Source: Bacteroidales bacterium | GTDB taxonomy: Bacteria > Bacteroidota > Bacteroidia > Bacteroidales > VadinHA17 | Length of the DNA: 46,678 bases | Reading direction: 5' to 3' | NCBI GenBank assembly: GCA_003141415.1 | Contig: PLLX01000275.1 | Coordinates: forward strand, 1 to 46,678 | Shown: positions 146-32,568 of the stretch, in pieces | Position numbering within the stretch: position 1 is the stretch's first letter | Layout of the letters: the number at the start of each line of letters is the position of its first letter | The notes under the pieces: model-generated | What the model was told of the DNA's origin: nothing | Database searches by the model: none | What the model saw: only the letters and a program-made list of their open reading frames with translations | Position numbers and translations under genes: made by a program

Positions 146-820
146 TCAGGATACAAGCTTTTTCAGATAATTCACTGCGCCCTGAGGGTCAGGTGAATAA
201 AAATCAGCTCCGATCTTTTTGCAATATTCATTCGTAACAGGAGCACCTCCAACAAGAATTTTTGAATTTGGATATTTTTCTTTTATTGCGAGAACTATGT
301 TTTTCATGTTTTCCATTGTAGTTGTGAGGAGAGCAGACAAACCAATTACCGCATTTTGATTTTTATTAAGCGCTTCTAGGAATTTTACCTCACCCACATC
401 AACTCCAAGATCAATGACTTCCCAACCACCCCCTTCTATCATCATAGAAACTAGGTTTTTACCTATATCGTGCAAATCACCAGTAACCGTTCCAATAATA
501 AATGTTCCCTTTCTTTTTGTTTCTCCAGATATAAAATATGGCTTGATATGGATCATTGAGCTACTCATAGCTTTTGCAGACATCAACATTTGCGGAACAT
601 AAATCTCCATCCTGCTAAACTTATTGCCAACATTTGCCATAGCAGGTATCAATGATTTTTCCAAAATTTCATCAGGACTGATCCCATTTTCGAGAGCCAG
701 CTTTGTCAATTCATCTGCACCATTCTGATCTTTCATATTTGGCGGATAGGGACAGTCTTTACTAATTTTTCCATATTCAATACATTGTGCTAATTTATTG
801 AGGATGTCACTCATAATCAT
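146..820 (-). CDS. Corrinoid (B12-binding) methyltransferase carrier protein
   Basis: This 224-residue protein has the two-part layout of MtaC/MtbC/MtvC-type corrinoid proteins: a helical cap domain (about residues 5-95) and a B12-binding Rossmann domain (about 103-222). The cobalt-ligating DxHxxG motif is present as D115-L-H117-D-I-G120. It is followed by the conserved SxL stretch near residue 158 and the GG turn (LVGGAP) near 193. Such proteins carry a methyl group on cobalt between a substrate methyltransferase and an acceptor methyltransferase in the cytoplasm. Length is normal for the family. It lies 180 bases downstream of a UroD-fold methyltransferase-like gene on the same strand, so the two probably form a pair. 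A second ATG at residue 3 (position 814) is an equally good start; neither has a clear Shine-Dalgarno. The family call is secure, the methyl donor is unknown. Confidence 0.9.
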   Translation of the reverse strand: MIMSDILNKLAQCIEYGKISKDCPYPPNMKDQNGADELTKLALENGISPDEILEKSLIPAMANVGNKFSRMEIYVPQMLMSAKAMSSSMIHIKPYFISGETKRKGTFIIGTVTGDLHDIGKNLVSMMIEGGGWEVIDLGVDVGEVKFLEALNKNQNAVIGLSALLTTTMENMKNIVLAIKEKYPNSKILVGGAPVTNEYCKKIGADFYSPDPQGAVNYLKKLVS

Positions 821-1000
821 TTAGATTTTATAGTCAACTATTATTTTGAAAATTTATTTAATGCTTTAAACCCGTCAAAATTGAAAAAGAGAATTAAAAT
901 TTTTAATTAAAGTGATCTTCTGCAGCTACATTTTTGTTTTGATTTCCACATTTAGCAGAAGTAAATGTAAGAACTACCAAAGTTTAAAATATGCCCCATG

Positions 1001-2182
1001 TCACAAATGATAGACTCCATACTCCATGAGGGTTTCCCAGAGAGCTATAACGTTCGCTACCGGCACATCTTCCTGAATATTATGAACCGTCGCAAAAACA
1101 AAACCTCCTCCAGGTGCAAAGTCATCGATACGCCTTTTTACTTCGTCCCTCACTTCCTGTGGCGTACCATGGGGAAGGACCTGCTGTGTATCTATGCCTC
1201 CTCCCCAAAAAGTTATTTCGCTTCCGAATTCCCTTTTTAATCTTGCTGAATCCATTGAAGCTGCAGTCACCTGGACAGGATTCAGAATATCTACTCCTAT
1301 CTCTATCAAGTCGGGGATGATATCATAAACACTTCCACAGGAGTGGAAGAGAATCTTTACACCTGGGGCCTTTCTTTTGATGAATTCGAACAATTTCTTT
1401 TCACGGGGTTTAATGAATTCACGGTACATTTCAGGTGAGATGAGCAGACCCTGCTGACTGCCCAGATCATCCAATTCCCTTATAATATGCACCTGGTTAC
1501 CTATTTCTTCAAGCAGAGTATTGAAATAATTGAGTTTTAATTCCAGAATATGGTCCATGATATAATTAACCTTATCGGGATCGTAAGCAAGATCAACAAA
1601 AAAGTCCTCGTAACCTTCAAGAATAGCGCCTGTATGAAAAAACCCGTTTCCAATTCTTGCGTCAAGAACCAAGGCGGCATGAGATTCGGAGAAAACTTTT
1701 TTAGTATAATCAGCAAGTTCCTTAGCTAGAGCCGGATCATTGCCATCTGGCCATTTATAAGAATGTACCGCATCAAAATCAGCTCCTCTAAGCGGATTGG
1801 CAACCATATCAAAGTAATGACCATCTTTTTTAGGCATCTTCCATATAGCACCCCACTCATCGCTAAACCACTTTGCGTCTTCGTTCTCCTTAACGACCAG
1901 TTTCCATGATGAAAGATTGTTGCGGGTTATCCTTCTTGTATCCACACCAAGTAATTTACAAATGTCAGTGTCCGGTTGTGCAAGCTGACCACCGAAACTC
2001 AGTATCTCAGGTTCCTTATCCGGGAGCCCAAAGTGATGACGCAAAACCGAATAAGCTTTCAGACTGATGGAAGATGATTCTGTAGCTCCAAGGTCAAAGG
2101 GCACTCTGTCAGGCTCTTTATGGTTTACTGCCATCATAACCCGCTGCCAGGGTTGCATAACTTCTTTCTCAATTTCTTTCAT
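1001..2182 (-). CDS. UroD-fold methyltransferase-like protein (MtaA/CmuA-type superfamily)
   Basis: This 393-residue protein belongs to the uroporphyrinogen decarboxylase fold (COG0407), not to true HemE. The HemE N-terminal arginine signature (RPVWxMRQAGR type) is absent; the start instead reads RVMMAVNHKEPDRVPFDLG. A zinc-type motif FHSCG lies at residues 279-283, and a histidine in TVHNIQ near 367 could supply a further ligand, as in the zinc sites of UroD-fold methyltransferases that act with corrinoid proteins. The corrinoid carrier gene lies 180 bases downstream and a glycosidase-like lipoprotein gene 23 bases upstream. From family and context it probably moves a methyl group between a substrate, perhaps a methylated sugar, and the corrinoid protein. 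UroD homologues in sugar loci are poorly characterised, so another lyase or decarboxylase role remains possible. Confidence 0.75.
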   Translation of the reverse strand: MKEIEKEVMQPWQRVMMAVNHKEPDRVPFDLGATESSSISLKAYSVLRHHFGLPDKEPEILSFGGQLAQPDTDICKLLGVDTRRITRNNLSSWKLVVKENEDAKWFSDEWGAIWKMPKKDGHYFDMVANPLRGADFDAVHSYKWPDGNDPALAKELADYTKKVFSESHAALVLDARIGNGFFHTGAILEGYEDFFVDLAYDPDKVNYIMDHILELKLNYFNTLLEEIGNQVHIIRELDDLGSQQGLLISPEMYREFIKPREKKLFEFIKRKAPGVKILFHSCGSVYDIIPDLIEIGVDILNPVQVTAASMDSARLKREFGSEITFWGGGIDTQQVLPHGTPQEVRDEVKRRIDDFAPGGGFVFATVHNIQEDVPVANVIALWETLMEYGVYHL

Positions 2183-2205
2183 ATAATTAATTTTCCGGAA
2201 TTGTT

Positions 2206-4338
2206 TTATAAAGAGATAGTTTCGTTGATCGGGAATATTGGTCTGCGGATTAATTTTGTTCCATTATGCTTCAATACATCCAGATGCATTATAACTAAAG
2301 TAGGCAATTGATGATTTGTGTTATTAAGCATTACCTTAATATTGGCTTTTTTGCCATCCTCTGAAATTACAAGTTCAACGTCTAGTAGTCCAAACTCGGT
2401 ATATACGCCATTAAGAGCAGTTTTCATCCCCGGCTTTACCCAGGTAGGTGGCAAACCTTCAAACAAATGAAGCTCTTTTCCTCTTTCAAGTGCTATAAAA
2501 TGGCGATTCATCCTGATGAATTCTGCACTTGCCCAATTGTGGGGCATATCGCCAATATAGCTGCGAGAATTCAGCGATTTAACCGGCTGTTCTTCTCGCC
2601 AGACGAGTGTGGGCGACGCATGATTTGCCATAGCATACATGGTTTGAGCTGCTTTTTGACCCTCACCCAGCCACAACCAGGCATGTGCATAAAATGATCC
2701 AAAATAATTCCAAACGCCTTTATCCTGCCAGCCGGTTTCATAAACCAGTCCTTCCCTCTCATTACATTTAAGCATATTCATTGTACCATGCATAAGGGAA
2801 TCATCGTTGCTGAATATTTTCCCGGGAAATATTGCATGACAGAATGCCCACTGTGCACGCTGGAGCTGACAGCTATCGACCATATAAATTGGTACTGCTC
2901 GATTTCCGCAGGAATCGGTTTTCAAACTTCTAGTTGCAGCTTTTCGATATGCCGCAAACATTGTATCATATTTGGCTTTCCATAATCCAGCTTCCTTATC
3001 CTTATTGAGCATTACAGCAATATCCACTGCTGATTTAAGTCCGTTTAATGTCCAGTATACATTGGTAAACTCATAAACATTTTTGTTGAGTCCACCATCA
3101 CTGAAACCGGGGGGAATCAGACCATAATTTGGTGCGTTTTTATCTTTCATTGTACTATAACGCATAGAATCGATAAAATCTACAGCCCTTTCTACATTGC
3201 CCCATTTTGATTCGAGCCATTTCATGTTGCCAGTTAATTGTGCATGGCGTTTTATAACCCATAATACTATTCCAGTTTCTTTCCAATGACGACCTATAAT
3301 CAAAAAAGAACCATTTTTTTTCTGAAAGCCAAGCATGTATTCAATCCCGTTTCTCACATCCTGAACCTGGCCCAAATATGTCATTGACTCAAGAAGAAAT
3401 GAACCATCGATAATCCATAAACCACGATATATTGTCGGACCTACCTGAAATGCCGGCAGCCCATACTTGATCTCGCGTGCCTGATAAATATTGCGGATAC
3501 AGGAATAAATTAGATTTTGAATATTACTATCGGGAACTACAATACGATCATATGGGAACTTATAAGTATTCCAGAATGAAATAGCTTTCTTTTTGTAATC
3601 ATTAGCATCACTCATTGAAGAAGGAATTTGAACAGCCTTGCTACCAATGTTAATTGCAAATGCAATCGCAACCTTGCTACCCGGTTTAAGTGGTATTTGG
3701 CCGAATTTAAAAGTATAAGAATGACTTGATCTGATAGATTTTTCAATTACCGAGGCAACACCGTTAGGTAAGGAGACGGTAATCCTGTTATCAATCGATA
3801 GTGATTTTTTATCCTTACTTACCTTTATTGGATACACGGAATTGATAAATAGTTTTGGAGTTATCGAAGTGTCTCTGCCTGACTTGTTGCCTATATTTAC
3901 AATTAATAAGTCATTGTGAGGAAATCCTACGAATCCTTTTGACAGTTCGCAACTATCCTGTGGTGAAGATTTCAAGGCTGGGGCAGCTGCAAAGATATCA
4001 GTTGAAAAAAGTATATGGTTCTTTTCGAATGAGGTTTGAAGTATAGGCACTTTGGAAGAATAAAGATGTTGTGATACGCCTACGGCTTCCAGCGAATCCA
4101 TTCCGGCAGAAATAGAAATATTACAACCGTTAAATGGTCCAGTCCTCAAAAAATCGTAGTAAATTAATCCTTTGTCGTCTACGATTGTTTTCTGAACTTC
4201 ATCAGGCAGGCAGATAGAAGTCTGTCCCCAGATGGGTGCATATCGTAGATCCATTTTGAAATCTTTTTCATTAAATGCTGGTTTCCTATAACAAGCAAGA
4301 AAAGTTAAAGAAAATAAAACGAGTATTTTAATTTTCAT
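2206..4338 (-). CDS. Six-hairpin glycosidase-like lipoprotein (GH78-like)
   Basis: This 710-residue protein starts with a lipoprotein signal (hydrophobic KILVLFSLTFLAC, lipobox Cys16), so it is probably anchored in an outer or periplasmic membrane. A beta-sandwich region occupies about residues 25-240, then an (alpha/alpha)6 barrel about 265-620, and a short beta C-terminal domain. Aromatic and acidic patches typical of six-hairpin glycosidases are visible, such as GLWIIDGSFLLES near 320, ETGWQDKGVWNYFG near 560 and GDMPHNWASAEFIRM near 630. The architecture fits alpha-L-rhamnosidases (GH78) and relatives, but I cannot assign the catalytic acids or the substrate. The stop lies 23 bases before the UroD-like gene, which suggests co-transcription with the methyltransferase pair. 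Confidence 0.65.
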   Translation of the reverse strand: MKIKILVLFSLTFLACYRKPAFNEKDFKMDLRYAPIWGQTSICLPDEVQKTIVDDKGLIYYDFLRTGPFNGCNISISAGMDSLEAVGVSQHLYSSKVPILQTSFEKNHILFSTDIFAAAPALKSSPQDSCELSKGFVGFPHNDLLIVNIGNKSGRDTSITPKLFINSVYPIKVSKDKKSLSIDNRITVSLPNGVASVIEKSIRSSHSYTFKFGQIPLKPGSKVAIAFAINIGSKAVQIPSSMSDANDYKKKAISFWNTYKFPYDRIVVPDSNIQNLIYSCIRNIYQAREIKYGLPAFQVGPTIYRGLWIIDGSFLLESMTYLGQVQDVRNGIEYMLGFQKKNGSFLIIGRHWKETGIVLWVIKRHAQLTGNMKWLESKWGNVERAVDFIDSMRYSTMKDKNAPNYGLIPPGFSDGGLNKNVYEFTNVYWTLNGLKSAVDIAVMLNKDKEAGLWKAKYDTMFAAYRKAATRSLKTDSCGNRAVPIYMVDSCQLQRAQWAFCHAIFPGKIFSNDDSLMHGTMNMLKCNEREGLVYETGWQDKGVWNYFGSFYAHAWLWLGEGQKAAQTMYAMANHASPTLVWREEQPVKSLNSRSYIGDMPHNWASAEFIRMNRHFIALERGKELHLFEGLPPTWVKPGMKTALNGVYTEFGLLDVELVISEDGKKANIKVMLNNTNHQLPTLVIMHLDVLKHNGTKLIRRPIFPINETISL

Positions 4339-4421
4339 CTTTCTAAAATATTTGATTTAACAACAATATGCATCAATAGTCATTCTCAAGGATTTTCCTC
4401 TGCTTTTTCTCTTGGACATTT

Positions 4422-4856
4422 TTAAGAATCAGCAAAATTTTCAAGAGCGTACAGAACAATTATCTCATCATTTTCGCCTGCGCCTTTAGCTGTACCTCCC
4501 ACTGCGATTGCACCGACCGTTTCTCCGGCAGCTTTTATCGGGTATGAGCCCATCAATGGAACCATCGTGGTAATTCCGAAATTCGCCATCATTGCTTTCC
4601 TTTCGACTGACACTGCTTCTTCCAGGACTTTACCCGGACGGTCAAAAGTGAGAGCGGTAACTGCTTTGCCGATTGTAATATTTGCCGAAACAATAATTGT
4701 ACCGTCAAGTCTTTCGAAATATATCAGATGTCCTCCGGCATCCACAATGGCAATTGCTGCTCCGACTCCCAATTCAGTGGCCTTTTGAACCGCCCGTGCT
4801 GCCAGCTTTTTTGCACCCTCGAGTGACAAAGTTTTCCTGATTATTAAATTTCCCAT
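4422..4856 (-). CDS. GlcG/HbpS family (DUF336) protein
   Basis: A 144-residue single-domain protein of the GlcG/HbpS family. Family hallmarks are visible: LGVGAAIAIVDAGGHLIYFERLDG (residues about 30-53), ITIGKAVTALTF (about 62-73), and the glycine-rich C-terminal GETVGAIAVGGTAKGAGENDE. HbpS binds haem, and the same domain forms the C-terminus of PduO cobalamin adenosyltransferases, where it binds haem or corrinoid. Its position two genes upstream of the UroD-like and corrinoid pair could mean a cofactor-handling role for cobalamin, but stand-alone GlcG proteins also occur in glycolate and sugar-acid operons without known function. The family call is firm, the role is inferred. Confidence 0.85.
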   Translation of the reverse strand: MGNLIIRKTLSLEGAKKLAARAVQKATELGVGAAIAIVDAGGHLIYFERLDGTIIVSANITIGKAVTALTFDRPGKVLEEAVSVERKAMMANFGITTMVPLMGSYPIKAAGETVGAIAVGGTAKGAGENDEIIVLYALENFADS

Positions 4857-4939: not shown

Positions 4940-5479
4940 TTAATACTTGATCTTCGAAATTCTGATCACATCCGGGTCAGTAAATTTATCCATTATATCG
5001 CGGGCTATCGTGGAATAGCTGTAAATTACTACTTCCTCAATGCCGGACTGGAACCAATGTCTCGTTCCCGGTTCAAAGGTGACCTGGTCGTTCACTTTCA
5101 TAACTAGTTCATTCTTACATGTATAAACATTACTTTTATTTTCAGGTATGTGTCCTTCCTTAAGAGTGTCTGGTCCGGACTGATATAAATACAATGTTCC
5201 TTTAACCACTCTTATTGTTTCTTCTTTGCCGGGATCGTCTCCCACAGGTGGGTGCCAATGCTCCGGTTCTGTCTGACCAGAAAATAATGCAATAACCTTA
5301 ACACTAATCCGTTCTGTCTGAACCAGCGTCAATATTTGCGCACCTTCCTTTTTTAGATCATTGAGTCCAAAATCGACTACCTCGATACTTTCAGCTTCTG
5401 TTTGGGACATCTTAATTCCGGAAGCGAGGATCATTCTGGCAGCTTCCTTCCGGGCAACCATAAATTCATCTTTTGTCAT
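4940..5479 (-). CDS. Cupin sugar isomerase, D-lyxose/D-mannose isomerase-like
   Basis: This 179-residue cupin resembles the D-lyxose ketol-isomerase family (Bacillus YdaE type, EC 5.3.1.15). The shared signature is a SGQTEPEHWHPPV block (H74, H76), a nearby glutamate run GKEETIR (E86/E87) and the later H141 in GTRHWFQSG. Together these form the usual His-His-Glu-His manganese site. The C-terminal FTDPDVIR also matches that family. Such enzymes interconvert D-lyxose with D-xylulose and D-mannose with D-fructose in the cytoplasm. In this locus it gives the cell another aldose-ketose interconversion beside two FucI-like isomerases and an RpiB-like isomerase. The native sugar may differ from lyxose. 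Confidence 0.8.
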   Translation of the reverse strand: MTKDEFMVARKEAARMILASGIKMSQTEAESIEVVDFGLNDLKKEGAQILTLVQTERISVKVIALFSGQTEPEHWHPPVGDDPGKEETIRVVKGTLYLYQSGPDTLKEGHIPENKSNVYTCKNELVMKVNDQVTFEPGTRHWFQSGIEEVVIYSYSTIARDIMDKFTDPDVIRISKIKY

Positions 5480-6099: not shown

Positions 6100-7473
6100 T
6101 TAGGGTTTCATAAAGAATGTTTTATAGATATAAAGTCCGATGAATGCTATCAGTATTGAGGCAATCATGATAATTACCCTCAGTCTGATCTTTTCTTTTG
6201 GCATTGAGGTATTCAGCTTTTTCAATGGATTCATGAACATCCACGAACACATCCCAAGGATATTCAGGACCGCAGCCAGGATGAAGAATGAATTTCCTGA
6301 ACCTGCATTTTCTGCAAAAATAGGTATCGTAACATTGGCAATGAAAAACGGAAAAATAATTGCGCTTGTTGCAGAACCAACATTACCAAGCATGTTCATT
6401 GTTCCTGAGACGGCTCCTGAACTTTTACCCCCGATATCCATACAGAATGTCCAGCTGGGCGCTATTGTCATTTCAACACCAAAAACTGCTATACCAAAGC
6501 AGGTTATAAAAGCTAAAGCTGAAATGTTTGTAATAAGAGTGCATAAAATGAGTCCGGTAGCAGCCAGAGCGAATCCAACTATTGCAGGAATTCTTCTAGA
6601 TGCAACATGGTAACCTTTATGATATAATAACGTAATAAGTGACCCTGAAATCCAATGGGCAAACATACCTAGAACGAGCGGGATAGGTGCATACACCGTG
6701 GCGTTCTCACCCCACTGACTTTTCATATAGGGAAACAACCATGAGAGACTGATGAAAAAAGTCAGTCCGCTAGCAAAATATTGGAACATGGCGAGGGCCA
6801 TATTTGATGATGTTATTACAACACCAAAAGGTATTTTTTCTCCAACTCTTTGTGTATCTGATAATCCCTCTTCAATGTACTGGCATTCCAATTCGTTGAC
6901 TCCCGGATGTTTTCCGGGTTGGTTTCTGAACCAAAGCAACCAGATAATCATCCAGATGAAACCGATTATCCCGTTTATTATGAACATCCATCGCCATCCG
7001 ACAATATGAATTAACCAGGGCATGAAAACTAATGATAATGCTGCACCCACACGACCACCAGAATGGAAAATGCCATTAGCAATTCCTCTTTCTTTTGCTG
7101 GTACCCAATTATAGACTGCACTTGTTGAGCCAGGAAATGCTCCTGCCTCCCCGGCTCCAAAGAAGAATCGGAAAAAAAGCATTGAAACTGCGTTCCATGC
7201 TAATCCGGTCAATGCTGTAAAAACACTCCAGAAGGATACAACGAATGTCAATAGTTTTTTTGGACCATATTTGTCGGCAAACCAGCCTGAAGGAATCTGA
7301 AACAGTGAATAACTTAAGGCAAACATAGCAAAGATATAACCAATCATTTGCGAGCTTATCTTAAGATCTGCCATTATCTGATCGCTTGCGGTCGAAATAC
7401 AGATACGATCCATGAATGTTATTGCAGTCAGAAAAAATAGCAACAATATTATCAGATACCTTTTGTGCGTCAT
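6100..7473 (-). CDS. MFS permease, ACS (anion:cation symporter) family
   Basis: A 457-residue inner-membrane permease with 12 predicted membrane helices. The N-terminal MDRICISTASDQIMADL, the loop motif GWFADKYGPKK (about residues 63-73) and GAGEAGAFPGSTSAVYNWVP (about 111-130) are typical of the anion:cation symporter family, which carries hexuronates, tartrate, glucarate and related acids. Nearby genes point to sugar or sugar-acid uptake. It precedes the cupin gene by 90 bases. The family is clear, the substrate is not, and an acidic or neutral sugar released by the upstream GH29-like proteins is plausible. Confidence 0.85.
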   Translation of the reverse strand: MTHKRYLIILLLFFLTAITFMDRICISTASDQIMADLKISSQMIGYIFAMFALSYSLFQIPSGWFADKYGPKKLLTFVVSFWSVFTALTGLAWNAVSMLFFRFFFGAGEAGAFPGSTSAVYNWVPAKERGIANGIFHSGGRVGAALSLVFMPWLIHIVGWRWMFIINGIIGFIWMIIWLLWFRNQPGKHPGVNELECQYIEEGLSDTQRVGEKIPFGVVITSSNMALAMFQYFASGLTFFISLSWLFPYMKSQWGENATVYAPIPLVLGMFAHWISGSLITLLYHKGYHVASRRIPAIVGFALAATGLILCTLITNISALAFITCFGIAVFGVEMTIAPSWTFCMDIGGKSSGAVSGTMNMLGNVGSATSAIIFPFFIANVTIPIFAENAGSGNSFFILAAVLNILGMCSWMFMNPLKKLNTSMPKEKIRLRVIIMIASILIAFIGLYIYKTFFMKP

Positions 7474-7543: not shown

Positions 7544-8644
7544 TCATTTTATTGCATTTCCGATCGTCTTCATCTGTTTTATACCAAAATCCTTAATTAG
7601 TCCGGATTTTGGATCGAATGGCCAGTCGAGGGTACAGACACCCCCCTGCTGGTTACAGGTTCTAATCCAATTTATCAGCTCCTGATCACTGAATTGATTT
7701 GCATCCCCCTGTCCATGATACACATTTCCACAGTAAACTTTGCCATGCCACAGAATATCTCCTTTTACCGGTCGTAGTTTTGGTGTGAGACGTGTCAGGT
7801 CTTGTTTACTCCAGGTATCGCCAGCGGTGAAATCATCTATACCTGGCTTTACACACTCAAATTCATTTCCACCATGACTAAAAGCTATGACAGCTTTAGG
7901 ATTATTTGTACGGATTATCGTTGAGATGGTACTCCAATCATTTGGCGATTTGCTATAAGAATTTGGTTCGATAATATCAAACCACCAACCTGCGATTTTA
8001 TCCTTATACCTATCAGCAAATTCTTTGAATATATCAACTCTTCGTTTGCGACATTCAGCAGTTGGCGGAATTTTTTCACCGAGTACCCCTCGTTGATTGG
8101 CATCATCTTTTAGTCCAGCCAAAGCCTTTTGATCCATCATATAGCCATTCAATCCGGCATAGTAAATAATCACTTTAATATCTTTTGCACTCAGGGCTTC
8201 TGTCACGTCCATAATCAGGTCTCTTCGCGAGCATTTGTCACCAGGAGCATACCCTGTATATTCAGAGAATGCCTTATTTGGAGCACACATCCACCCAAAA
8301 TACGCATCGTCCAGACCGAACATCACCCATCCAATTTTCGCTTCTGCCATCTGATTTGCAAATCCTTTTGCATCAAAACCATCTACGAAACGATTCCAAT
8401 CTGCAGCGGTCATTTGTGAAGATTTTGGAAACTTTGGGTTTGTCATTGTCGAATAATTCAGAAGAATGCGATATTGATAATGCATAAAGATCCCATACTT
8501 GCCTTTAATCATCCAGTCCGTATTACCTTTAACGGCGAACAGACTAAATTGAATAAACATAATCATCAATAATGAAAGGATCACTCTTCCTTTTTTAATA
8601 AGATTCTTTTTTAAGCCTATTATAATTCCTGATAAAGAATTCAT
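7544..8644 (-). CDS. GH29-like exported TIM-barrel protein, paralogue 1
   Basis: This 366-residue protein has a basic N-terminus and a hydrophobic signal segment (about residues 20-38), then one TIM-barrel domain related to GH29 alpha-L-fucosidases. The first strand motif GKYGIFMHYQYR (about 48-59) corresponds to the GH29 KFGIFIHWG motif. The strand motif GWWFD, near residue 220, places an aspartate where GH29 has its nucleophile. The C-terminal GGVCTLDWPFDPKSG is shared by all copies. It is shorter than classical GH29 enzymes, which carry a C-terminal beta-sandwich. It is the most downstream member of the tandem array and has a perfect Shine-Dalgarno. Activity on fucose or another deoxy or methylated sugar is unproven. 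Confidence 0.65.
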   Translation of the reverse strand: MNSLSGIIIGLKKNLIKKGRVILSLLMIMFIQFSLFAVKGNTDWMIKGKYGIFMHYQYRILLNYSTMTNPKFPKSSQMTAADWNRFVDGFDAKGFANQMAEAKIGWVMFGLDDAYFGWMCAPNKAFSEYTGYAPGDKCSRRDLIMDVTEALSAKDIKVIIYYAGLNGYMMDQKALAGLKDDANQRGVLGEKIPPTAECRKRRVDIFKEFADRYKDKIAGWWFDIIEPNSYSKSPNDWSTISTIIRTNNPKAVIAFSHGGNEFECVKPGIDDFTAGDTWSKQDLTRLTPKLRPVKGDILWHGKVYCGNVYHGQGDANQFSDQELINWIRTCNQQGGVCTLDWPFDPKSGLIKDFGIKQMKTIGNAIK

Positions 8645-8649
8645 ACTTT

Positions 8650-8657
8650 TCCTCCTT
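8650..8657 (-). promoter_or_regulatory. Strong Shine-Dalgarno of GH29-like paralogue 1
   Basis: AAGGAGGA on the minus strand, five bases before the ATG at 8644. It fixes the long start that includes the signal peptide. Paralogue 4 has a similar GGAGGA, paralogue 3 a weaker GAGG, and paralogue 2 none. Confidence 0.65.
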
Positions 8658-8743
8658 AAGTTTAAGTTAGTTTTTCATGTGCATTTGGTTGAAATTAATG
8701 TGCATTTTCTGTTACAAATATGAAAATACTTCCGGAAACCAAT

Positions 8744-9847
8744 TCATTTTACCTTTTTACCGATATTAATTATTTGTTTTACTCCAAAGTCTTTAATAAG
8801 TCCTGTTTTAGGGTCAAAGGGCCAATCAAGAATACAAACTCCGCCCTGACTGTTGCACGTCTTTATCCAGTTGATCAGATAGTCATCGGTATACCGGTTT
8901 GAATTGCCCAGTCCGTGATAGATATCTCCGCAGTAAATTTTACCGCACCATAGAATGTCACCTGTCACAGGATGGATTTTTGGAGTAAGGTTAGCTAAAT
9001 CGAGAGGTGACGGAGACCATTGGTCGCCTGAAGTATAATTATCGACACCCGGGAAAAGACGACCAAAAACATTGTCACTGAAGTTAAAAGCTACAGCACT
9101 CTCTGGATTTGCTTTATAAATAATCGAGGCAAGTTTTTCATAACCATAACCGTCCTTTTCGGAATAGCCACCGGCAATTACTCCGTCAAACCACCATCCA
9201 GCTATTTTTGTGCCATATCTTTTTGCATATTCCTCGAGTACTCTCAGATGTTTCTTCCTGCTTTCCAATGTTGGAGGTTTCCTGTAGAGAAAATCATCGC
9301 CGAAACCCCGGGCTGTCTTTTCATCTCTTGGATAACCGAACATTCCCGACAAATACGCTATTAATTTAATTCCCTTTGGGTTCAAAGCTTTCGCCAGATC
9401 CATTATCAGGTCGCGATTTGAACATTTATCTCCCGGTTTATATCCTGTAATTGAATCAAATGCTGCATTTGGCGCACAATGAAATGCGAAAGGCCCGTCA
9501 TTAATACAGAACAGCACCCAGCCAACATTTGCCTCTGACATTTGATTTGCAAATCCTTTTACGTCAAAACCATTAACAAACTGATTCCATTCCTTTGATG
9601 TCATTGCAGATGCAGGGGGATACTTTTCATCAGGATGAGCTGTAAGGTTTGTATTAATCTGGCAATAGCCCAGCATGATACGGTACTGGTAATGCATAAA
9701 TATTCCGTATTTGGCCTTTACCATCCAGTTTGTGTCACCTGGTCCGGCTAAGATTATAGTTTGAGATATCATTACTAACAACACGAATAAGATCAAATGT
9801 CGTATCCTGACTTTTACCATATAGATTAATTTTTGAAAGGATCTCAT
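8744..9847 (-). CDS. GH29-like exported TIM-barrel protein, paralogue 2
   Basis: A 367-residue paralogue with signal segment HLILFVLLVMISQTIILA (about residues 18-35) and the same landmarks as its neighbours: KAKYGIFMHYQYRIM, a GWWFDGV strand with the putative nucleophile aspartate, and GGVCILDWPFDPKTG near the C-terminus. It is the most diverged copy. It has CINDGPFAFHCAPN where copies 3 and 4 have CLDDHHFAWPC-type sequence, and its loop after the aspartate is GVIAGGY, so its substrate pocket probably differs. It lies only 21 bases after paralogue 3 and 99 bases before paralogue 1. No Shine-Dalgarno is visible. The family call is moderately secure, the function inferred. Confidence 0.65.
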   Translation of the reverse strand: MRSFQKLIYMVKVRIRHLILFVLLVMISQTIILAGPGDTNWMVKAKYGIFMHYQYRIMLGYCQINTNLTAHPDEKYPPASAMTSKEWNQFVNGFDVKGFANQMSEANVGWVLFCINDGPFAFHCAPNAAFDSITGYKPGDKCSNRDLIMDLAKALNPKGIKLIAYLSGMFGYPRDEKTARGFGDDFLYRKPPTLESRKKHLRVLEEYAKRYGTKIAGWWFDGVIAGGYSEKDGYGYEKLASIIYKANPESAVAFNFSDNVFGRLFPGVDNYTSGDQWSPSPLDLANLTPKIHPVTGDILWCGKIYCGDIYHGLGNSNRYTDDYLINWIKTCNSQGGVCILDWPFDPKTGLIKDFGVKQIINIGKKVK

Positions 9848-9868
9848 AATTTTAGGAGTAAGAATGAT

Positions 9869-10981
9869 TTATTTCAACGCTTTCTTAATAGCAACCATTT
9901 GTTTAAAGCCAAAATCTTTTATGAGTCCGGTTTTAGGTTCAAATGGCCAATCGAGCGTACATACACCGCCCTGATCGTTGCATGTTTTAATCCATGTAAT
10001 TAATTCCTGATCAGTAAACTGGTTTGAATCACCCTGTCCATGGTAAACATTGCCGCAATATATTTTACCATGCCACAAAACTCCTCCTTTAGCAGGGTAA
10101 TTCTTAGGGATTAATTTGATTAAATCCTGTTTAGTCCAGGTATCACCTCCTGTATAATCGTCTATTCCCTGGACAAGTGGTCCCATTTGGGAGACACCGC
10201 CCTGAGCCAATGAAATCACTGCCTTAGGATTGGCATTGCGAACTATCGAATTTATGGCCCACCAATCGTAAGGAGGATCATCGTAAGAGTTTTTCCCCGG
10301 TGTATCAAACCACCAACCGGCTATTTTTGTGCCAAATCTATCAGCATATTCTTTTAGTATTTCTAATCGTTTTTTTCGACTTTCAGCAGATGGTGGGGCT
10401 TTTTCACCAACATTTCCCCGATTTGTATCTCCTAATCCGGTAAGGATTTTAGGTTCTTTCTGATAACCGTTCAAACCTGCATAATTGACAATCAACTTAA
10501 TGTCTTTTGCATTAAGGGCATCGGCTACATCCATTATCAAATCACGTTTAGAACATTTTTCGCCAGGTTTATAACCAGTATAGTAGTCAAATTTACTGTT
10601 TGGACTACATGGCCAGGCAAAGTAATGGTCATCCAGACAAAACATAACCCACCCGATTTTTGCTTTTTTCATTTGTTCGGCAAATCCCTTAACATCAAAA
10701 CCGTCAACAAATCGATTCCATTCTTTGTATGTCATCAAGGAGGTATCTGGCACTAAAGGCCTTGTACCAAGACGTTGAGTACCACTACTGTATCCAAGCA
10801 GAATCCGATATTGGTAGTGCATGAATAACCCGTACTTTCCTCTGGTCATAAATGTTGTATCACCAGGGCCCGCATTAGCAACCATGTGAATTATAAACAA
10901 CATCATTATGGTTAAAATCGATCTCTTTACGATCGTTAAATCTTGCCTAATGAATTTTAGGTTCTTTTGAAAGATTTTCAT
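9869..10981 (-). CDS. GH29-like exported TIM-barrel protein, paralogue 3
   Basis: A 370-residue paralogue with signal segment SILTIMMLFIIHMVANA (about residues 21-37). GKYGLFMHYQYR opens the barrel. CLDDHYFAWPCSPN carries the loop shared with paralogue 4, and GWWFDTPGKNSY holds the putative nucleophile aspartate. The end reads GGVCTLDWPFEPKTG. It differs from the others by a short insertion after the first strand (SGTQRLGTRPLVPD). A weak GAGG lies nine bases before the ATG. It is the second gene transcribed in the array, 84 bases after paralogue 4. Confidence 0.65.
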   Translation of the reverse strand: MKIFQKNLKFIRQDLTIVKRSILTIMMLFIIHMVANAGPGDTTFMTRGKYGLFMHYQYRILLGYSSGTQRLGTRPLVPDTSLMTYKEWNRFVDGFDVKGFAEQMKKAKIGWVMFCLDDHYFAWPCSPNSKFDYYTGYKPGEKCSKRDLIMDVADALNAKDIKLIVNYAGLNGYQKEPKILTGLGDTNRGNVGEKAPPSAESRKKRLEILKEYADRFGTKIAGWWFDTPGKNSYDDPPYDWWAINSIVRNANPKAVISLAQGGVSQMGPLVQGIDDYTGGDTWTKQDLIKLIPKNYPAKGGVLWHGKIYCGNVYHGQGDSNQFTDQELITWIKTCNDQGGVCTLDWPFEPKTGLIKDFGFKQMVAIKKALK

Positions 10982-11064
10982 TTGTTTTTCCTCATTTAGA
11001 TTACGTAAACTATAAAAGTGTATTCTTATTTATTTTAAAGAAGATAAGAGTTTGTCGGTATGAT

Positions 11065-12159
11065 TCATTTAATTGCATTCCCGATCTTTATCATCTGTTT
11101 TATACCAAAATCCTTAATGCGTCCAGTCTTGGGATCAAACGGCCAATCAAGAGTGCAAACGCCACCCTGGCTTTTGCAGGTTTTAATCCAGTCAATCAAT
11201 TCCTCGTCTGTAAACTGATTAGTATCCCCCATTCCATGATAAAAATTTCCACAATAGATTTTACCATGCCATAAAATGCCATCCTGAGGAGGTAATATTT
11301 TAGGAGTCAATCGTTTCAAATCCTGTTTGGTCCAGGTGTCACCACCTGTATAATCATCCATGCCTTTAAGGATACATGCCTGTTCATTACTGCCATAGCT
11401 AAAAGCGATGACAGCTTTGGGATTCGCTTTACGAACAATAGAATTGACCATAGACCAGTCATAGGGTTTATCCCTGAAAGTATTTAGTTCCACTGCATCG
11501 AACCACCATCCTGCTATTTTATCATTATATCGATCTGCATACTCTCTAAGTACTTCTAATCGCCTCTTCCGACACTCTGCGGATGGTGGTACTTTTTCAT
11601 TATACATTCCCCGCACAGTATCTTTTAATCCTGCTAAAATCTTAGGCTCTTTCATGTAGCCATTCAGACCGGCGTAATAGACAATGAGCTTAATCCCTTT
11701 GGGATTGAGAGCTTTTGCCAAGTCCATTATTAAATCTCTATTCGAACATTTTTCACCTGGTGCATAACCAGTATAATCGCAGAAAGTTTTGTTTGGGGCA
11801 CATGGCCAGGCGAAATGATGATCATCCAGACAAAACATTACCCAACCCACTTTTGCGCTTACCACCTGATCTACAAATCCTTTTACATCAAAGCCATCCA
11901 CAAATTGATTCCACTGTGAAGCTGTCATTTGGGAAGGATCAGGTAACATGGGTTTTGTTGTTCCCCCATAACCGAGAAGAATCCGATACTGGTAATGCAT
12001 AAAGATCCCATATTTACCTTTAGTCATCCAGCTTATGTCTCCTTTTCCTGCCAATCCTACTGATTGTATAAGAAATAAAATCATCACGGTCGTAATGATC
12101 TTGCTTTTCAGTACCAGGACTTTTGATAAAAAATCCATCTTATTTTTATTGATTTTCAT
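11065..12159 (-). CDS. GH29-like exported TIM-barrel protein, paralogue 4
   Basis: This 364-residue protein is first in the tandem array. The signal segment is about residues 20-37. GKYGIFMHYQYR opens the barrel at about 48-59, CLDDHHFAWPCAPN lies at 110-123, and the putative nucleophile is D221 in GWWFDAVELN. The C-terminal GGVCTLDWPFDPKTG is the most conserved block of the array. Repeated cysteines (CLDD, WPC, KCSN, TCKSQGGVC) are shared by most copies and may form disulfides in the periplasm. A GGAGGA Shine-Dalgarno lies five bases before the ATG. Just upstream sits the 3' scar of a fifth copy. Confidence 0.65.
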   Translation of the reverse strand: MKINKNKMDFLSKVLVLKSKIITTVMILFLIQSVGLAGKGDISWMTKGKYGIFMHYQYRILLGYGGTTKPMLPDPSQMTASQWNQFVDGFDVKGFVDQVVSAKVGWVMFCLDDHHFAWPCAPNKTFCDYTGYAPGEKCSNRDLIMDLAKALNPKGIKLIVYYAGLNGYMKEPKILAGLKDTVRGMYNEKVPPSAECRKRRLEVLREYADRYNDKIAGWWFDAVELNTFRDKPYDWSMVNSIVRKANPKAVIAFSYGSNEQACILKGMDDYTGGDTWTKQDLKRLTPKILPPQDGILWHGKIYCGNFYHGMGDTNQFTDEELIDWIKTCKSQGGVCTLDWPFDPKTGRIKDFGIKQMIKIGNAIK

Positions 12160-13124: not shown

Positions 13125-13583
13125 TCAAATTTTAAACAACCCCTTATCTATCTCTCGTATGCGTTCAACTTTGGGTAAAGAACGTCCGCCCTGAAAAGTA
13201 CTGTTTACCCAGGCGTTAACGATGCTTTTTGCCAGCTCTGATCCTAAAACCAGGGCGCCAAGACAAAGAATCTGAGCATCGTTACTTTTTACCAGTCTCT
13301 CAGCCGAATAAACATCACTGCATGTGCCTGCAAATATCCCTGGCACTTTATTGGCACATATTGCCATGCCAAGACCCGTTCCACAAATCAATATGCCCCG
13401 GTCGAATTTGTTCTTTCTTATTGCATTTGCAAGGTTTATTGCAATGTCGGGATAATCTTCCCTTTCATGCAGATCAAGATATGACATATCAGTTATATCA
13501 CATTTAATATCAGACAGGTACTGAATAAGAATTTTTTTCAGTTCTAACCCGTTTTTATCCGAATCAATAGCAATTTTCATCAT
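13125..13583 (-). CDS. RpiB/LacAB family sugar-phosphate isomerase
   Basis: A 152-residue protein of the RpiB/LacA/LacB family. ILICGTGLGMAICANKVPGI carries the catalytic cysteine C67 and the phosphate-binding GTGxGM loop. YPDIA near residue 44 and VKSNDAQILCLGA near 98-110 are also family-typical. Family members interconvert aldose and ketose phosphates such as ribose-5-P/ribulose-5-P, galactose-6-P/tagatose-6-P and allose-6-P. Here it is the last gene of an isomerase, kinase, phosphofructokinase and aldolase series, so a hexose-6-phosphate isomerase role like LacAB is as likely as RpiB itself. It starts with MMK; either Met could be used. Confidence 0.85.
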   Translation of the reverse strand: MMKIAIDSDKNGLELKKILIQYLSDIKCDITDMSYLDLHEREDYPDIAINLANAIRKNKFDRGILICGTGLGMAICANKVPGIFAGTCSDVYSAERLVKSNDAQILCLGALVLGSELAKSIVNAWVNSTFQGGRSLPKVERIREIDKGLFKI

Positions 13584-13607
13584 TTTTATATAGATGCAGT
13601 TAAATAA

Positions 13608-14594
13608 TTACATTTTACCCTGATCTGCCATTCCGGCGCAACCGAAAACTTCCTTCATCTTATAAATATAAACTTCTTTCATGGCATCTCGTGCCGGTGC
13701 AAGGAATTTTCTCGGATCAATAATAGCGGGATTCTCCGTCAAAACTTTTCGGGTAGTGGCAGTCATTGCTATCCATCCATCAGATGCAATATTTATTTTG
13801 CAAACTGCAGTCTTTACAGCCTTTTTCACCTGATCCACTGGAATTCCTTGTGCGTGTTCTAGCTTTCCTCCAAAACGGTTAATCATTTCGATATATTCCT
13901 TTGGGATTGCTGACGAACCGTGCAATACAATAGGAAAACCAGGAAGCTTCTTCTCTACTTCGGCCAATATATCAAACCGAAGCGGCGGGACAGGTTCGCC
14001 GGGTTTTACTTTTATTTTTACTAATCCGTGTGAAGTCCCGATGGAAATAGCCAGGCTGTCTACCCCTGTGCGGTTAACAAATTCATGTACTGCATCTGGA
14101 TCAGTAAAACGAGATTCAGAATGGGAAACTTCTTCTTCAATACCTGAAACAATTCCCAGTTCACCCTCTACTGTAACATCATACCTGTGAGCAAATTCAA
14201 CAACACTGGCTGTCAGCTCAATATTTTCTTTAAAAGGAAGTGCAGAACCATCAATCATGACCGAAGAGAAACCGCCTTCTATAGCAGCTTTGCACTCTTC
14301 ATAGGAAGTTCCATGGTCCAGATGCAGTGCCATTGGGATCTTCATACCCTTCGATTGAATAATCTCTGCGCATGCAGTAGCCATGTGCCTGGCCATAACA
14401 GGATGGATATATTTGCGGACCTTAGCGGAGCATTGCATGATAAAAGGAGAGTGGGTTTCTATAGCGGCTGCGGTAATGGCCTGCATTTGCTCCAGGCACA
14501 CAAAGTTAAAGGCACCGATTACATACCCGCCATTATATGCTTTTTTGAACATTTCCCGGGTATTTACGAATCCTAATTTTTTAAATAAGATCAT
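13608..14594 (-). CDS. Class II (zinc) ketose-bisphosphate aldolase
   Basis: A 328-residue zinc aldolase of the fructose/tagatose-bisphosphate family. Motifs in order are HLDHG at 91-95 (catalytic Asp93, zinc His94), the EGELGIVSGIEEE loop, GTSHG and LHGSS (zinc histidines), and KINIASDGW for phosphate binding. It is longer than the gatY/kbaY type owing to an extra segment before the last motif. It cleaves a ketose 1,6-bisphosphate to glycerone phosphate and an aldehyde phosphate in the cytoplasm. The neighbouring PPi-type phosphofructokinase gene, 26 bases upstream, would supply the bisphosphate. The exact stereoisomer (fructose, tagatose, sorbose, psicose) cannot be read from the sequence. 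Confidence 0.9.
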   Translation of the reverse strand: MILFKKLGFVNTREMFKKAYNGGYVIGAFNFVCLEQMQAITAAAIETHSPFIMQCSAKVRKYIHPVMARHMATACAEIIQSKGMKIPMALHLDHGTSYEECKAAIEGGFSSVMIDGSALPFKENIELTASVVEFAHRYDVTVEGELGIVSGIEEEVSHSESRFTDPDAVHEFVNRTGVDSLAISIGTSHGLVKIKVKPGEPVPPLRFDILAEVEKKLPGFPIVLHGSSAIPKEYIEMINRFGGKLEHAQGIPVDQVKKAVKTAVCKINIASDGWIAMTATTRKVLTENPAIIDPRKFLAPARDAMKEVYIYKMKEVFGCAGMADQGKM

Positions 14595-14620
14595 AATAGT
14601 TGTTTATATAGTAATTAATT

Positions 14621-15829
14621 TTAAATATATGTCCATACTTCATCTTTTACTTCTCCTGAATCTGTCTTATAAGCCACAGGTTCGCGCCCAAAACAAATTC
14701 CCATACTTTCATAAAACGAAACCATATTCATTTCAACCAGTCTTTGTTTGATAGCTTTCCGGATATCCATGTATTGTACCCTGCCTTTGATAACGCCAGT
14801 AACAGTAACACCTGTTATACCATCTCTGAGTAAAATAACAGCGCCGGCGCCAGCATCTTTACCAAAATTAATGTCCAGTGCAGAAGAATATCCGGAACGG
14901 GTCAGATATCCTGGAACCGATTCTCTTATTTCAGGGAACATATTCATGTCCTGAATGAAAAGCCCCATTTCTTTGTAAAATACCTGCATTTCTAAATCCG
15001 CCTTCAAGTATTTGGCAAGCTGTTCACGAACATATTTCCCTGAACCACCAAGTTTTTTATGACCAAATGCATCCACAGTAACGGTATTATCGGCCGTTTT
15101 AACACCAGTATGATCATGCATCCCTTCATTCACAACAATAATATAGGTCCCATTATGAGTATCGCTTTCACGAATACGACGCATGAAAGTTTTCCTGCAG
15201 TGTTTGTAGATAACATCAAAATCAACAGGGATTTCCGGAATGAGAATACAATCCGCACCACCAGCTACACCTCCCCTGAAGGTAGTGTGGCCTGCATATC
15301 TTCCAAATACTTCCAGTATCATAATGCGGTTATGTGTACGGCCTGTTGTCTTTAATTCTTCTAAATAATTTGCTATCCTGTTCACAGAGGAGTCTCCTCC
15401 AACAGAATAAGTATTCAGATCCATATCCATAGTTTTAGGAACATGAATACATGGAATTCCATTTTCATTTAAATCAACAACCACGCCGCCGGTATCGTCA
15501 CCACCGGCTATAATTAAAGCATCGATAGAATACTTTTCAAGTCCTGCTTTAATGCGACGGTATTTGTCGGGATCATCGATCTTTGAAATCTTAACGCGTG
15601 AGTGGCCTGCTTCTGATCCCGCCATAATAGATCTTATCGAGTCAATTTTTTTTGAATCAAGTTTTAAAATAGTATCTTTTTCGAGAAGATTATAAAGTCC
15701 TGCATAACCATTTGTAATCATATATGCTTCACAACCTGATGAAACAGCCATTTGTGCGGCACCTTTAATGACAGCGTTTAGCCCTCCGCAATCACCTCCA
15801 CTAGTGATAATTCCAATCTTTTTTATCAT
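14621..15829 (-). CDS. 6-phosphofructokinase family, PPi-type active site
   Basis: A 402-residue protein of the PfkA superfamily. ITSGGDCGGLNAVIKG (residues 8-23) forms the phosphoryl-donor loop. The donor-specificity positions read GGDD (109-112) and PKT (131-133). ATP enzymes have GGDG and PGT at these places, while pyrophosphate enzymes have Asp and Lys. The catalytic TIDND loop is changed to TMDMD (133-137), with the first catalytic Asp kept. EVFGRYAGHTT near 170 is typical. It should phosphorylate a ketose-6-phosphate at C1. Its ATG overlaps the stop of the upstream PfkB gene by four bases, implying coupled translation. PPi use is inferred from residues. Confidence 0.85.
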   Translation of the reverse strand: MIKKIGIITSGGDCGGLNAVIKGAAQMAVSSGCEAYMITNGYAGLYNLLEKDTILKLDSKKIDSIRSIMAGSEAGHSRVKISKIDDPDKYRRIKAGLEKYSIDALIIAGGDDTGGVVVDLNENGIPCIHVPKTMDMDLNTYSVGGDSSVNRIANYLEELKTTGRTHNRIMILEVFGRYAGHTTFRGGVAGGADCILIPEIPVDFDVIYKHCRKTFMRRIRESDTHNGTYIIVVNEGMHDHTGVKTADNTVTVDAFGHKKLGGSGKYVREQLAKYLKADLEMQVFYKEMGLFIQDMNMFPEIRESVPGYLTRSGYSSALDINFGKDAGAGAVILLRDGITGVTVTGVIKGRVQYMDIRKAIKQRLVEMNMVSFYESMGICFGREPVAYKTDSGEVKDEVWTYI

Positions 15830-16803
15830 ATCATTGTAACTAATTTTAAAAATTCATTTACCTCATGTTTGTCCGGCAACGCGGGAATAACTCCTTTTTT
15901 GGTAGCTGTAAGTGCCCCAACCGCATTGGCATAAATCAGAAATTCTCTTAACTTTTCCGGTTCTGTGTCACCCTGTGTTTTCTCTTTAATATAAAGTGAA
16001 AGGAATCCAGCTACAAATGCATCACCACAGCCAATTGTATCGACAGAATTAACTTTGAAAGCTTTGACAAATATTCCTTCGTTCCTAGTAAACACCCAAC
16101 TTCCTTTTGATCCCATAGTTAAAAGTACAATTTGAGGACCTAAGGTTAATAAAGGAGTTACAGCAATTTCCGGATTATCACTACCGGTAAGTAATAAAAG
16201 TTCATCGTCGTTGAGTTTTACAATATCCACAAGGGCTATAATTTTTAATATTGAATCAATGGCGTCCTGTTTACTTTCCCAAACCGGTTCCCTGTAATTG
16301 ACATCAAATGAGACAGTTCCTCCATTGTCCTTTACAATTTTTATGGCTTCCATAGTTGCACTCCGGGTAGGTTCGTTTGTTAGATTTAGCGAGTCAAAAT
16401 GCAAAATTTTACATGATTTTAGCAGATCGCAGTCAAGTTCATCCGGTGTTAACAGAGTGTCGGCGCCTGGTTTGCGGTAAAAAAGGTACTCGGTAGTTTT
16501 TTCATCAGGTTTGGCGTGTAAATTCATGGTTGTGCAGGCCGTTTTATCGAATTGCATACCTTTAACATTCACGCCATGTGATTCATAAACCTTCGCCAGG
16601 TGACGTCCAAAGATATCATCACCCACTTTACCTATGAAAGCCGATGAAGCGCCTAATTTTGCCGCTGCAACAGCTACGTTGGCCGGTGCTCCGCCCGGGG
16701 CAGGAATGAAATAGGGTACATCTGTCAAATGTTTTCCGTACTCAGATGGGAACATATCCATTATGGCAACTCCAATACATACAATATCCATATTGTCTTT
16801 CAA
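15826..16803 (-). CDS. PfkB/ribokinase family sugar kinase
   Basis: A 325-residue ribokinase-fold kinase. PAPGGAPANVAVAAAKLGA near 31-49 is the substrate-side signature. DTIGCGDAFVAGFL near 255-268 is the catalytic anion-hole signature with base D261; the usual GAGD is GCGD here. The layout resembles bacterial fructokinases. It probably phosphorylates the ketose made by the FucI-like isomerase encoded upstream, at C6 given the phosphofructokinase that follows. Its stop overlaps the next start by four bases, so the two kinases are translationally coupled. Kinase class is firm; sugar specificity is not. Confidence 0.88.
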   Translation of the reverse strand: MKDNMDIVCIGVAIMDMFPSEYGKHLTDVPYFIPAPGGAPANVAVAAAKLGASSAFIGKVGDDIFGRHLAKVYESHGVNVKGMQFDKTACTTMNLHAKPDEKTTEYLFYRKPGADTLLTPDELDCDLLKSCKILHFDSLNLTNEPTRSATMEAIKIVKDNGGTVSFDVNYREPVWESKQDAIDSILKIIALVDIVKLNDDELLLLTGSDNPEIAVTPLLTLGPQIVLLTMGSKGSWVFTRNEGIFVKAFKVNSVDTIGCGDAFVAGFLSLYIKEKTQGDTEPEKLREFLIYANAVGALTATKKGVIPALPDKHEVNEFLKLVTMI

Positions 16804-16958
16804 TTTCTTTTATGTTTGTAGTCAAACCGTTTAATTCTTTTTAATCTTAATATTTGTCTTTGCCCCCTTTCTTTATTCCGACTCCTACTGATTGTTTACT
16901 TTCCGGATGCCCACAACAGAACCGATAGCGGGACATCCTTCGGTAAAATCATATTTCT

Positions 16959-17309: not shown

Positions 17310-17343
17310 CAGTATTTAAGGGTGATTTATTAGTAATAGTTCA

Positions 17344-27515: not shown

Positions 27516-27550
27516 CTCAAACCCTTATTTTAAAATTGATAATTGCAATT

Positions 27551-28873: not shown

Positions 28874-28890
28874 AGTCTTACTTCATTAAG

Positions 28891-29850: not shown

Positions 29851-29860
29851 TGATACCTCG

Positions 29861-30517: not shown

Positions 30518-30518
30518 T

Positions 30519-31241: not shown

Positions 31242-31260
31242 TCTGTTTTTCCCTTATTTA

Positions 31261-32556: not shown

Positions 32557-32568
32557 ATTCTCATCCTT

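Follow-up and report, generated by a model that had tools for sequence, protein, structure and literature searches.

Methyl transfer through corrinoid carriers is known from several systems whose enzymes have the uroporphyrinogen decarboxylase (UroD) fold. The O-demethylases OdmB, VdmB, MtvB and MtoB belong to the UroD superfamily and act on methoxylated aromatics, and CdmB is reported, in the part of the source available, to need no zinc (PMC13222342). Type 1 mlp clusters of anaerobes also combine several UroD-family genes with a corrinoid protein; as far as the accessible text goes, they include a Ram/RACE activase, hold no folate methylase and point towards methyl-sulfur or methyl-selenium compounds, and no word beginning with "Bacteroid", "sugar" or "glycos" occurs in the main text of the paper on them (PMC10418091). 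The only sugar O-demethylation found in the literature searched is an oxidative, monooxygenase-based P450 reaction that demethylates 6-O-methyl-D-galactose from porphyran and yields formaldehyde (PMC10033563, available portion). No report of corrinoid demethylation of sugars, 4-O-methylglucuronate included, was found in titles and abstract openings of the open-licence literature, which is not proof of absence, and "Methylotrophy in the Mire" (PMC10805028) contains, in the main text accessible, no word beginning with "Bacteroid". The window analysed here is the whole 46,678-nt stretch formed by bases 1-46678 of a 56,997-base contig (PLLX01000275.1, C206) from a metagenome-assembled genome (MAG) of a VadinHA17 Bacteroidales bacterium (G000; 5.26 Mb, 81.75% complete). 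It encodes a corrinoid (B12) carrier and, beside it, UroD1, a UroD-fold candidate methyltransferase, and it was compared with 117 genomes of the family; stretches around genes (L-numbers) were also read. Corrinoid-dependent demethylation of sugar methyl ethers is probably the best reading of the system. On balance, the window is viewed as a satellite copy of a corrinoid relay for such ethers in glycan-degrading Bacteroidales, in which the donor of the family would be 4-O-methyl-D-glucuronate and that of the window another O-methylated sugar. The bacteria are uncultured and apparently anaerobic.

The four genes singled out in the initial annotation (carrier, UroD-fold protein, DUF336 protein and glycosidase-like lipoprotein) were recovered as long minus-strand open reading frames (ORFs) at the same positions (Table 1), and for the first three the labels agreed with Pfam, for the carrier and the UroD-fold protein also with invariant motifs. 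As expected for the carrier of a three-component O-demethylase, the DxHxxG motif kept its D, H and G in all 16 sequences of an alignment. In NCBIfam, the carrier resembled the MtgC, MtbC and pyl_corrinoid-like models, under every curated cut-off, and it is 79% identical to a second carrier of the same genome on contig C181. In UroD1, residues D239, H280-x-C282 (FHSCG) and H367 were invariant among 18 aligned sequences. The best PDB fold match of its AlphaFold model (14 sequences, mean pLDDT 78.5) was 4AY8, a methyltransferase of Methanosarcina mazei (TM 0.59-0.67); since HemE was nearly as close, the fold alone does not decide the function. The UroD1 profile matched best 4AY7, the methylcobalamin:coenzyme M methyltransferase of Methanosarcina (1.5e-9), and matched CdmB weakly (3.1e-5), while the HemE model TIGR01464 was absent from the UroD1 and UroD2 hits at 1e-3. 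UroD1 thus resembles MtaA, MtbA and CmuA in its best fold match, its best profile match and its H-x-C, and differs from them in a score of 70 bits against the MtaA/CmuA model TIGR01463 (cut-off 235.4) and in the absence of a later Cys, which leaves the H-x-C...C site of MtaA/CmuA incomplete. By its fold and its position beside the carrier, UroD1 corresponds to the substrate methyltransferase (MTI) of a three-component O-demethylase, and it would catalyse the first methyl transfer.

The methyl acceptor enzyme, which the initial annotation had reported as absent from the window, was located on C181 of the same MAG. The genes stand there in tandem, in the order carrier, MtrH/AcsE-type protein (PF00809), MTHFR with a DUF5981 domain (479 aa), PF02965 protein, FGGY kinase and XylA. 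The MtrH scored 261.3 bits against NF005719, the methyl-tetrahydrofolate (THF):corrinoid methyltransferase model (cut-off 259), so that a THF-type second methyltransferase (MTII) is present in the genome, outside the window. The DUF5981 domain is MetV-like, and the PF02965 protein is a stand-alone match to the activation domain of MetH. Near-full-length carriers of at least 50% identity were found in 88 of the 117 family genomes and in 9 of 15 genera; broader tallies (carrier 109, MtrH 106) also count weak hits to MetH. The C181 MtrH had many full-length hits in the family at 68-89% identity. Among 394 sampled Bacteroidia outside the family, strict thresholds left one carrier (E 1e-40 or better) and no UroD-X, the UroD clade described below (1e-30 or better). 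With labels assigned by blastp against one reference each, the 78 carrier loci contained MtrH (61), the MetH-activation protein (57), MetFV (40), SusC (19), XylB (18), XylA (15) and members of the glycoside hydrolase (GH) families GH115 (11), GH10 (8) and GH67 (3). One or more genes of the xylan, glucuronidase or xylose type were present in 32 of the 61 loci with carrier and MtrH, and a xylan gene in 0 of 19 usable control stretches (0 of 20 with L235, which overlaps a module); the controls were at most 10 kb long, and carrier loci reached about 20.7 kb.

A tree of 64 UroD proteins separated four groups, namely UroD-X, the UroD1 clade, UroD2 and MtaA-like proteins. UroD-X has H-N-D instead of H-x-C, the UroD1 clade has H-x-C, GG and mostly H-N-I, and the MtaA-like proteins have H-x-C together with a later Cys. 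In the PDB, the sole matches of the UroD-X profile at 0.01 were uroporphyrinogen decarboxylases; in NCBIfam, UroD-X scored higher with the methylcobalamin:coenzyme M methyltransferase model (70.4 of 244 bits) than with the hemE model TIGR01464 (54.2 of 302.95), a model whose cut-off was passed by a HemE in a relative (L260, 328.8 bits). Several genomes of genus g14 (G092, G097 and G103 among them) had only two URO-D matches over the cut-off, one of which is UroD-X (~350 aa).

The evidence for the donor comes from the loci of UroD-X. Half of the 26 strong GH115 genes of the family (13/26) lie within 15 kb of a carrier, with 0.26 expected at random placement. This count used 26 of 33 rows (at least 391 bits), with carrier rows below 50% identity and carrier fragments left out, and its P value of 6e-20 assumes independent random placement, which is violated by related genomes. 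Among the best 55 UroD-X rows by score of a longer list, seven genomes of one genus have UroD-X no more than 25 kb from a carrier on a contig that also holds GH115, and the gene order was read in four. The order LacI-GH67-UroD-X-XylB-XylA-MetFV is contiguous in L162 and L178; L164 keeps this order, its GH67 ORF being short, and L163 gave no call for GH67 or XylA. All four stretches include GH10-like and GH3-like genes (the GH3 match of L162 being weak), with GH115 on the same contig, and three of them, L162 excepted, also have GH30-like genes and a symporter that resembles the GPH type. The Pfam/NCBIfam check of these loci covered L162, where the kinase matched XylB best, under the cut-off. 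Among the representatives, GH115 was identified as PF15979 with GH115_C, GH10 as PF00331, GH67 by three Pfam domains, XylA by TIGR02630 over its cut-off and the symporter as GPH type. A rhamnose-type label for isomerase and kinase, given by size, was dropped on the NCBIfam matches. The genome of the window carries UroD-X, LacI, a GPH symporter, GH10, GH3 and GH115 on contig C60, with the methyl module apart, on C181. Taken as GH115 or GH67, a xylanase, UroD-X and the carrier module standing together, the proposed glucuronoxylan locus was found in relatives, not in the window. GH67 and GH115 enzymes release (4-O-methyl)glucuronic acid from xylan, and because UroD-X is embedded with them, 4-O-methyl-D-glucuronate is the predicted donor, the most likely and best-supported one for the relatives and for this other locus of the same genome. 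For the methylated rhamnose, fucose, xylose or galactose proposed in the initial annotation there was no evidence, and the relatives point to 4-O-methylglucuronate through a UroD clade other than that of UroD1. That the window pair may be a paralogous set for another methylated sugar is held with lower confidence.

In the proposed relay, each catalytic step of which is predicted from the observed genes, their order, conservation and co-location, a glycosidase would free the O-methylated sugar, and a UroD-fold enzyme (UroD1 in the window, UroD-X in the xylan loci) would hand the methyl group to the carrier, whose corrinoid would be in the Co(I) state. The next transfer, to THF, would fall to the MtrH-type enzyme of C181, a putative partner of the window carrier, and the MetV-MetF-type protein would oxidise methyl-THF to methylene-THF for biosynthesis. 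Where formate-THF ligase (FTHFS) is linked, methylene-THF would go on to formate with a gain of ATP; this outcome would follow in L225, where carrier, MtrH, MetFV, UroD and FTHFS stand together. The stand-alone MetH-activation-domain protein would re-reduce the carrier in place of RACo. In G000 itself, the FTHFS match was unconvincing, at 24 bits, below the cut-off, in a 58-aa frame. Acetogenesis was also considered and dropped, because an acetyl-CoA synthase match in 2 of 117 genomes makes it unlikely for nearly all of them.

Such a relay would share with the OdmB, VdmB, MtvB, MtoB and CdmBCA systems a UroD-superfamily MTI, a corrinoid carrier and a folate-dependent MTII, here of the MtrH/AcsE type. 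By description, in the case of OdmB and MtoB, it differs from them in the MetH-activation-domain protein, which stands where no RACo was found in the MAG, in its setting in glycan-utilisation loci (in relatives) and in the predicted donor, a sugar rather than an aromatic or haloalkane. From the Type 1 mlp clusters it differs, as far as the available text describes them, in its MtrH, MTHFR and glycan genes (PMC10418091); these clusters have Mlp2 and Mlp3 with a carrier and Ram/RACE, and the comparison with them covered a RACo search of G000, which had no match. The relay would resemble the porphyran P450, as the accessible part presents it, in that bacteria strip a polysaccharide sugar of a methyl ether; unlike the P450, it would need no O2 and would keep the methyl group in folate metabolism (PMC10033563).

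A set of observations weighs against sugar demethylation as the role of the system. RACo (PF14574) had no match in the 81.75% complete G000, and 29 of the 61 loci with carrier and MtrH, some of them on short contigs, had no xylan gene in the stretch read. Nine of the 13 GH115-carrier cases are from genus g14 and four from the genus of the window, so that with kinship the effective number is smaller; the pattern still recurs in both genera. The later Cys is missing from UroD1, and H-x-C from UroD-X. H-x-C...C is the zinc site of MtaA/CmuA and the later Cys a zinc ligand; given that CdmB reportedly needs no zinc, an absent zinc ligand does not disqualify a candidate. In the genus of the window, UroD-X stands beside a gcvP-like gene (~960 aa) in at least eight loci (L165-L169, L171, L173 and L176), which fits one-carbon (C1) metabolism and not a sugar locus; NCBIfam named the gene of L165 gcvP, and in one of these loci a GH10-like gene lies some 6 kb from the pair. 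The partners named in the initial annotation fared worse than its reaction class. The window glycosidase, DUF336 and lyxose-isomerase-like genes had counterparts in none of the 78 carrier loci. The close homologues of the glycosidase in two other genomes (G036 and G044, 72-76% identity) had neither carrier nor UroD in the stretches read. The two results tell against the glycosidase, and the first of them against the DUF336 protein, as parts of the system. The six-hairpin glycosidase label itself is plausible from the weak TIGR01577 match and unproven, with no Pfam hit and an empty PDB search at 0.01 with a four-sequence profile. Corrinoid-dependent sugar demethylation, in turn, gained more support from the genome and its relatives than from the window.

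Among the alternatives, the one that survives best, while still unlikely, is that the window pair is a product of chance or decay, with UroD1 standing beside a duplicated carrier and no joint function. A gap of 180 bp separates the two genes, and no carrier was seen in the ten nearest UroD1 homologue loci (L181-L190, 38-41% identity; two stretches shorter than 7 kb), a point that also counts against the relay. In addition, bases 1-337 of the window are repeated at 95.5% identity in C241 of the same MAG (6654-6990, L063). The 337-bp repeat lies at the ends of two contigs and contains the 3' end of the carrier gene, and C241 retains only the C-terminal part of the carrier. Only 145 bp lie between the carrier and the contig end, which cuts off any genes that followed, save a partial secreted-looking ORF. 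Against chance or decay, the window carrier is untruncated and keeps every invariant residue, and a UroD gene lies within 3 kb of a carrier in 14 of 96 loci (4/18 and 10/78), a count that also speaks for the relay and in which L066 and L109 are one place and the L159 hit is weak. That place holds, in a row, UroD1-like, GH38-like, GH38-like, UroD2-like, UroD1-like, carrier and GH38 genes.

A biosynthetic or thiol-directed C1 shuttle was judged distinctly unlikely. Here the carrier, MtrH, MTHFR and MetH-activation protein would form a split methionine-synthase-like or folate salvage unit, the MtaA-like UroDs would methylate a thiol and the sugar loci would only be hosts. The MetH-like parts of the C181 module, the UroD-X/gcvP-like pairs and, by eye, the homocysteine-methyltransferase-like and CobW-like genes beside the L156 carrier are in its favour, as are the MtaA-like UroDs themselves. 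The second URO-D of g14 (L257, L258 and L259) has H-x-C...C and matched best the MtaA/CmuA-type or methylcobalamin:coenzyme M methyltransferase models, below their cut-offs; a HemE label given by score was rejected on this motif and these matches. A similar protein is encoded in G000 (L179:9601-10617), and in the three g14 genomes its gene is on another contig than the xylan locus. The MtaA-like UroD may work with the carrier as a thiol methyltransferase; a thiol could then be another acceptor, with UroD-X as a sugar enzyme unproven, which again weighs against the relay. This identity adds an alternative acceptor and leaves the odds unmoved. The shuttle is opposed by MetH itself, for which these genomes, among them G000, have full-length frames of about 1220 aa, and by the contiguity with GH67, XylA and XylB and the co-location with GH115.

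Little probability was also given to O-demethylation of methoxylated aromatics, in which UroD, carrier and MtrH would strip lignin-derived aromatics travelling with hemicellulose, as the Odm, Vdm, Mtv and Mto systems do. The known substrates of OdmB, VdmB, MtvB and MtoB (PMC13222342, in the part available) speak for it, and so do GTDB record titles, which suggest peat fens among the habitats. The titles of 80 records, unsorted by family membership, indicate digesters, fens and sediments, those of lakes included; they give Bacteroidales, Bacteroidia, Bacteroidetes or Bacteroidota MAGs or named members of these groups, and one Balneolales. The neighbours of UroD1-type genes argue otherwise. No aromatic-degradation or methylamine family was among the 25 of 105 Pfam families listed there, and the neighbours were mostly sugar-related or SusC-type, so the setting that the initial annotation had named as adverse to sugar demethylation, with homologues mainly beside aromatic or amine genes, did not appear. 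Among 102 of 121 neighbour proteins scanned were Gfo/Idh/MocA (8), MFS (6), SusC-type plug (6), GH38 (5), xylose-isomerase-like TIM barrel (4), GH106 (2), 3-keto-disaccharide hydrolase (2) and SusD (2). In 110 of 157 control proteins (25 of 167 families listed), histidine kinase, response-regulator, ABC and AAA families were commonest, with alpha-L-fucosidase and MFS at 2 each; five of these control proteins come from L235. The embedding of UroD-X with alpha-glucuronidases and xylose genes also opposes an aromatic donor, and CdmB, a relative of the OdmB group, was only weakly matched by the UroD1 profile and was not found by the UroD-X profile at 0.01. Use of methanol from methyl esters, with the UroD as an MtaA-like second methyltransferase, was raised by L153, where the carrier adjoins MtaB and a RACo-like gene (MtaB in 3 and RACo in 5 of the 78 loci), and was dropped as very improbable, MtaB being matched in 0 of 117 family genomes with a positive Methanosarcina control.

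If sugar demethylation is accepted, a broader and tentative proposal, held at somewhat less than even confidence, is that the lineage is a "glycan methylotroph", in which one carrier-MtrH-MTHFR-MetH-activation module would serve many UroD-fold enzymes, each with its own methylated sugar, independently of O2. The donors would be the 4-O-methylglucuronate of xylan, the sugar of the window and further methylated sugars at loci linked to GH38 and GH106. Their methyl groups would yield folate C1 units and, in some genomes, formate and ATP, with RACo apparently absent and acetyl-CoA synthase missing from nearly all genomes. 4-O-methylglucuronate is among the main side chains of xylan in hardwoods and grasses, so that its methyl groups amount to a large store of C1 units in soils, sediments and digesters that are anoxic. 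An O2-free B12 route would explain the fate of these groups, would offer their carbon a path other than methanogenesis and would give a role to many proteins now labelled only as "uroporphyrinogen decarboxylase family".

Table 1. Features of the window, with the sequence matches on which their labels rest.
Feature	Coordinates	Strand	Evidence
Start of secreted-looking ORF, directly downstream of carrier, cut by contig end	1..90	-	Translation
Corrinoid (B12) carrier, 224 aa	146..820	-	PF02607, E 2.9e-15; PF02310, E 8.9e-24
UroD1, UroD-fold candidate methyltransferase (MTI), 393 aa	1001..2182	-	PF01208, 85 bits
Glycosidase-like lipoprotein, 710 aa, membership in system doubtful	2206..4338	-	TIGR01577 (oligosaccharide-amylase), weak, 1.8e-5
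HbpS/GlcG (DUF336) protein, 144 aa, membership doubtful	4422..4856	-	PF03928, 92.6 bits
D-lyxose-isomerase-like cupin, 179 aa, sugar context	4940..5479	-	PF07385, 21.1 bits (cut-off 20.8)
MFS transporter, galactonate-transporter-like	6100..7473	-	PF07690; TIGR00893, 206.6 of 395 bits
Four tandem paralogous secreted proteins	7544..12159	-	Weak GH29-like PF01120 on 2 of 3 scanned (one over, one under cut-off)
UroD2, second UroD-fold protein, 365 aa	23975..25072	-	PF01208, 68.9 bits

Nearly all large genes of the window are on the minus strand. The fourth tandem paralogue (11065-12159) was assigned by sequence resemblance alone. Relatives of UroD2 were found in L109, L192, L194 and L195, loci that also hold UroD1-type genes and, in three of the four, GH38-like genes; UroD1-like matches numbered up to 19 in one genome.

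Other arrangements of the carrier were seen in the stretches read. In L148:10001-14006 and L156:306-5225, it is accompanied by a 539-aa UroD, a GTPase that is CobW-like by eye and a MetH-activation protein, and L156 additionally has the protein that resembles a homocysteine methyltransferase; in this type, the methyl group would perhaps go to homocysteine instead of folate. In L153:7393-12680, the same carrier type adjoins MtaB (PF12176), a UroD with an MtaA-like motif and the RACo-like gene, and in L150:10001-12172 the carrier adjoins RACo (PF14574). These two may represent a methanol-type version in other lineages.

The rest of the window encodes sugar kinases, aldolases, isomerase-like proteins, a pyruvate-dehydrogenase-like set and SusC/SusD, with some labels, including SusC/SusD, given by resemblance only. 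Genes for sugar isomerase-like proteins, PfkB/PFK kinase, FBA-like aldolase, TalC/F6P-aldolase, HAD and pyruvate-dehydrogenase-like proteins are dense in 13125-18765 and 26388-35420, and an unusual sugar pathway is possible there; the protein of 17344-18765 is a distant relative of sulfoquinovose isomerase (132 of 700 bits). The 116-aa ORF at 16959-17309 had no Pfam hit and, by eye, resembles the truncated N-terminus of a secreted glycosidase. At 25156-26363, a TIM-barrel fragment (25905-26363) overlaps a Gfo/Idh ORF (25156-26028) that is without most of its N-terminal domain, which suggests a frameshift, decay or an assembly error. Finally, the protein encoded at 18910-20937 combines FG-GAP repeats, in a fusion, with a TIM barrel that resembles xylose isomerase.

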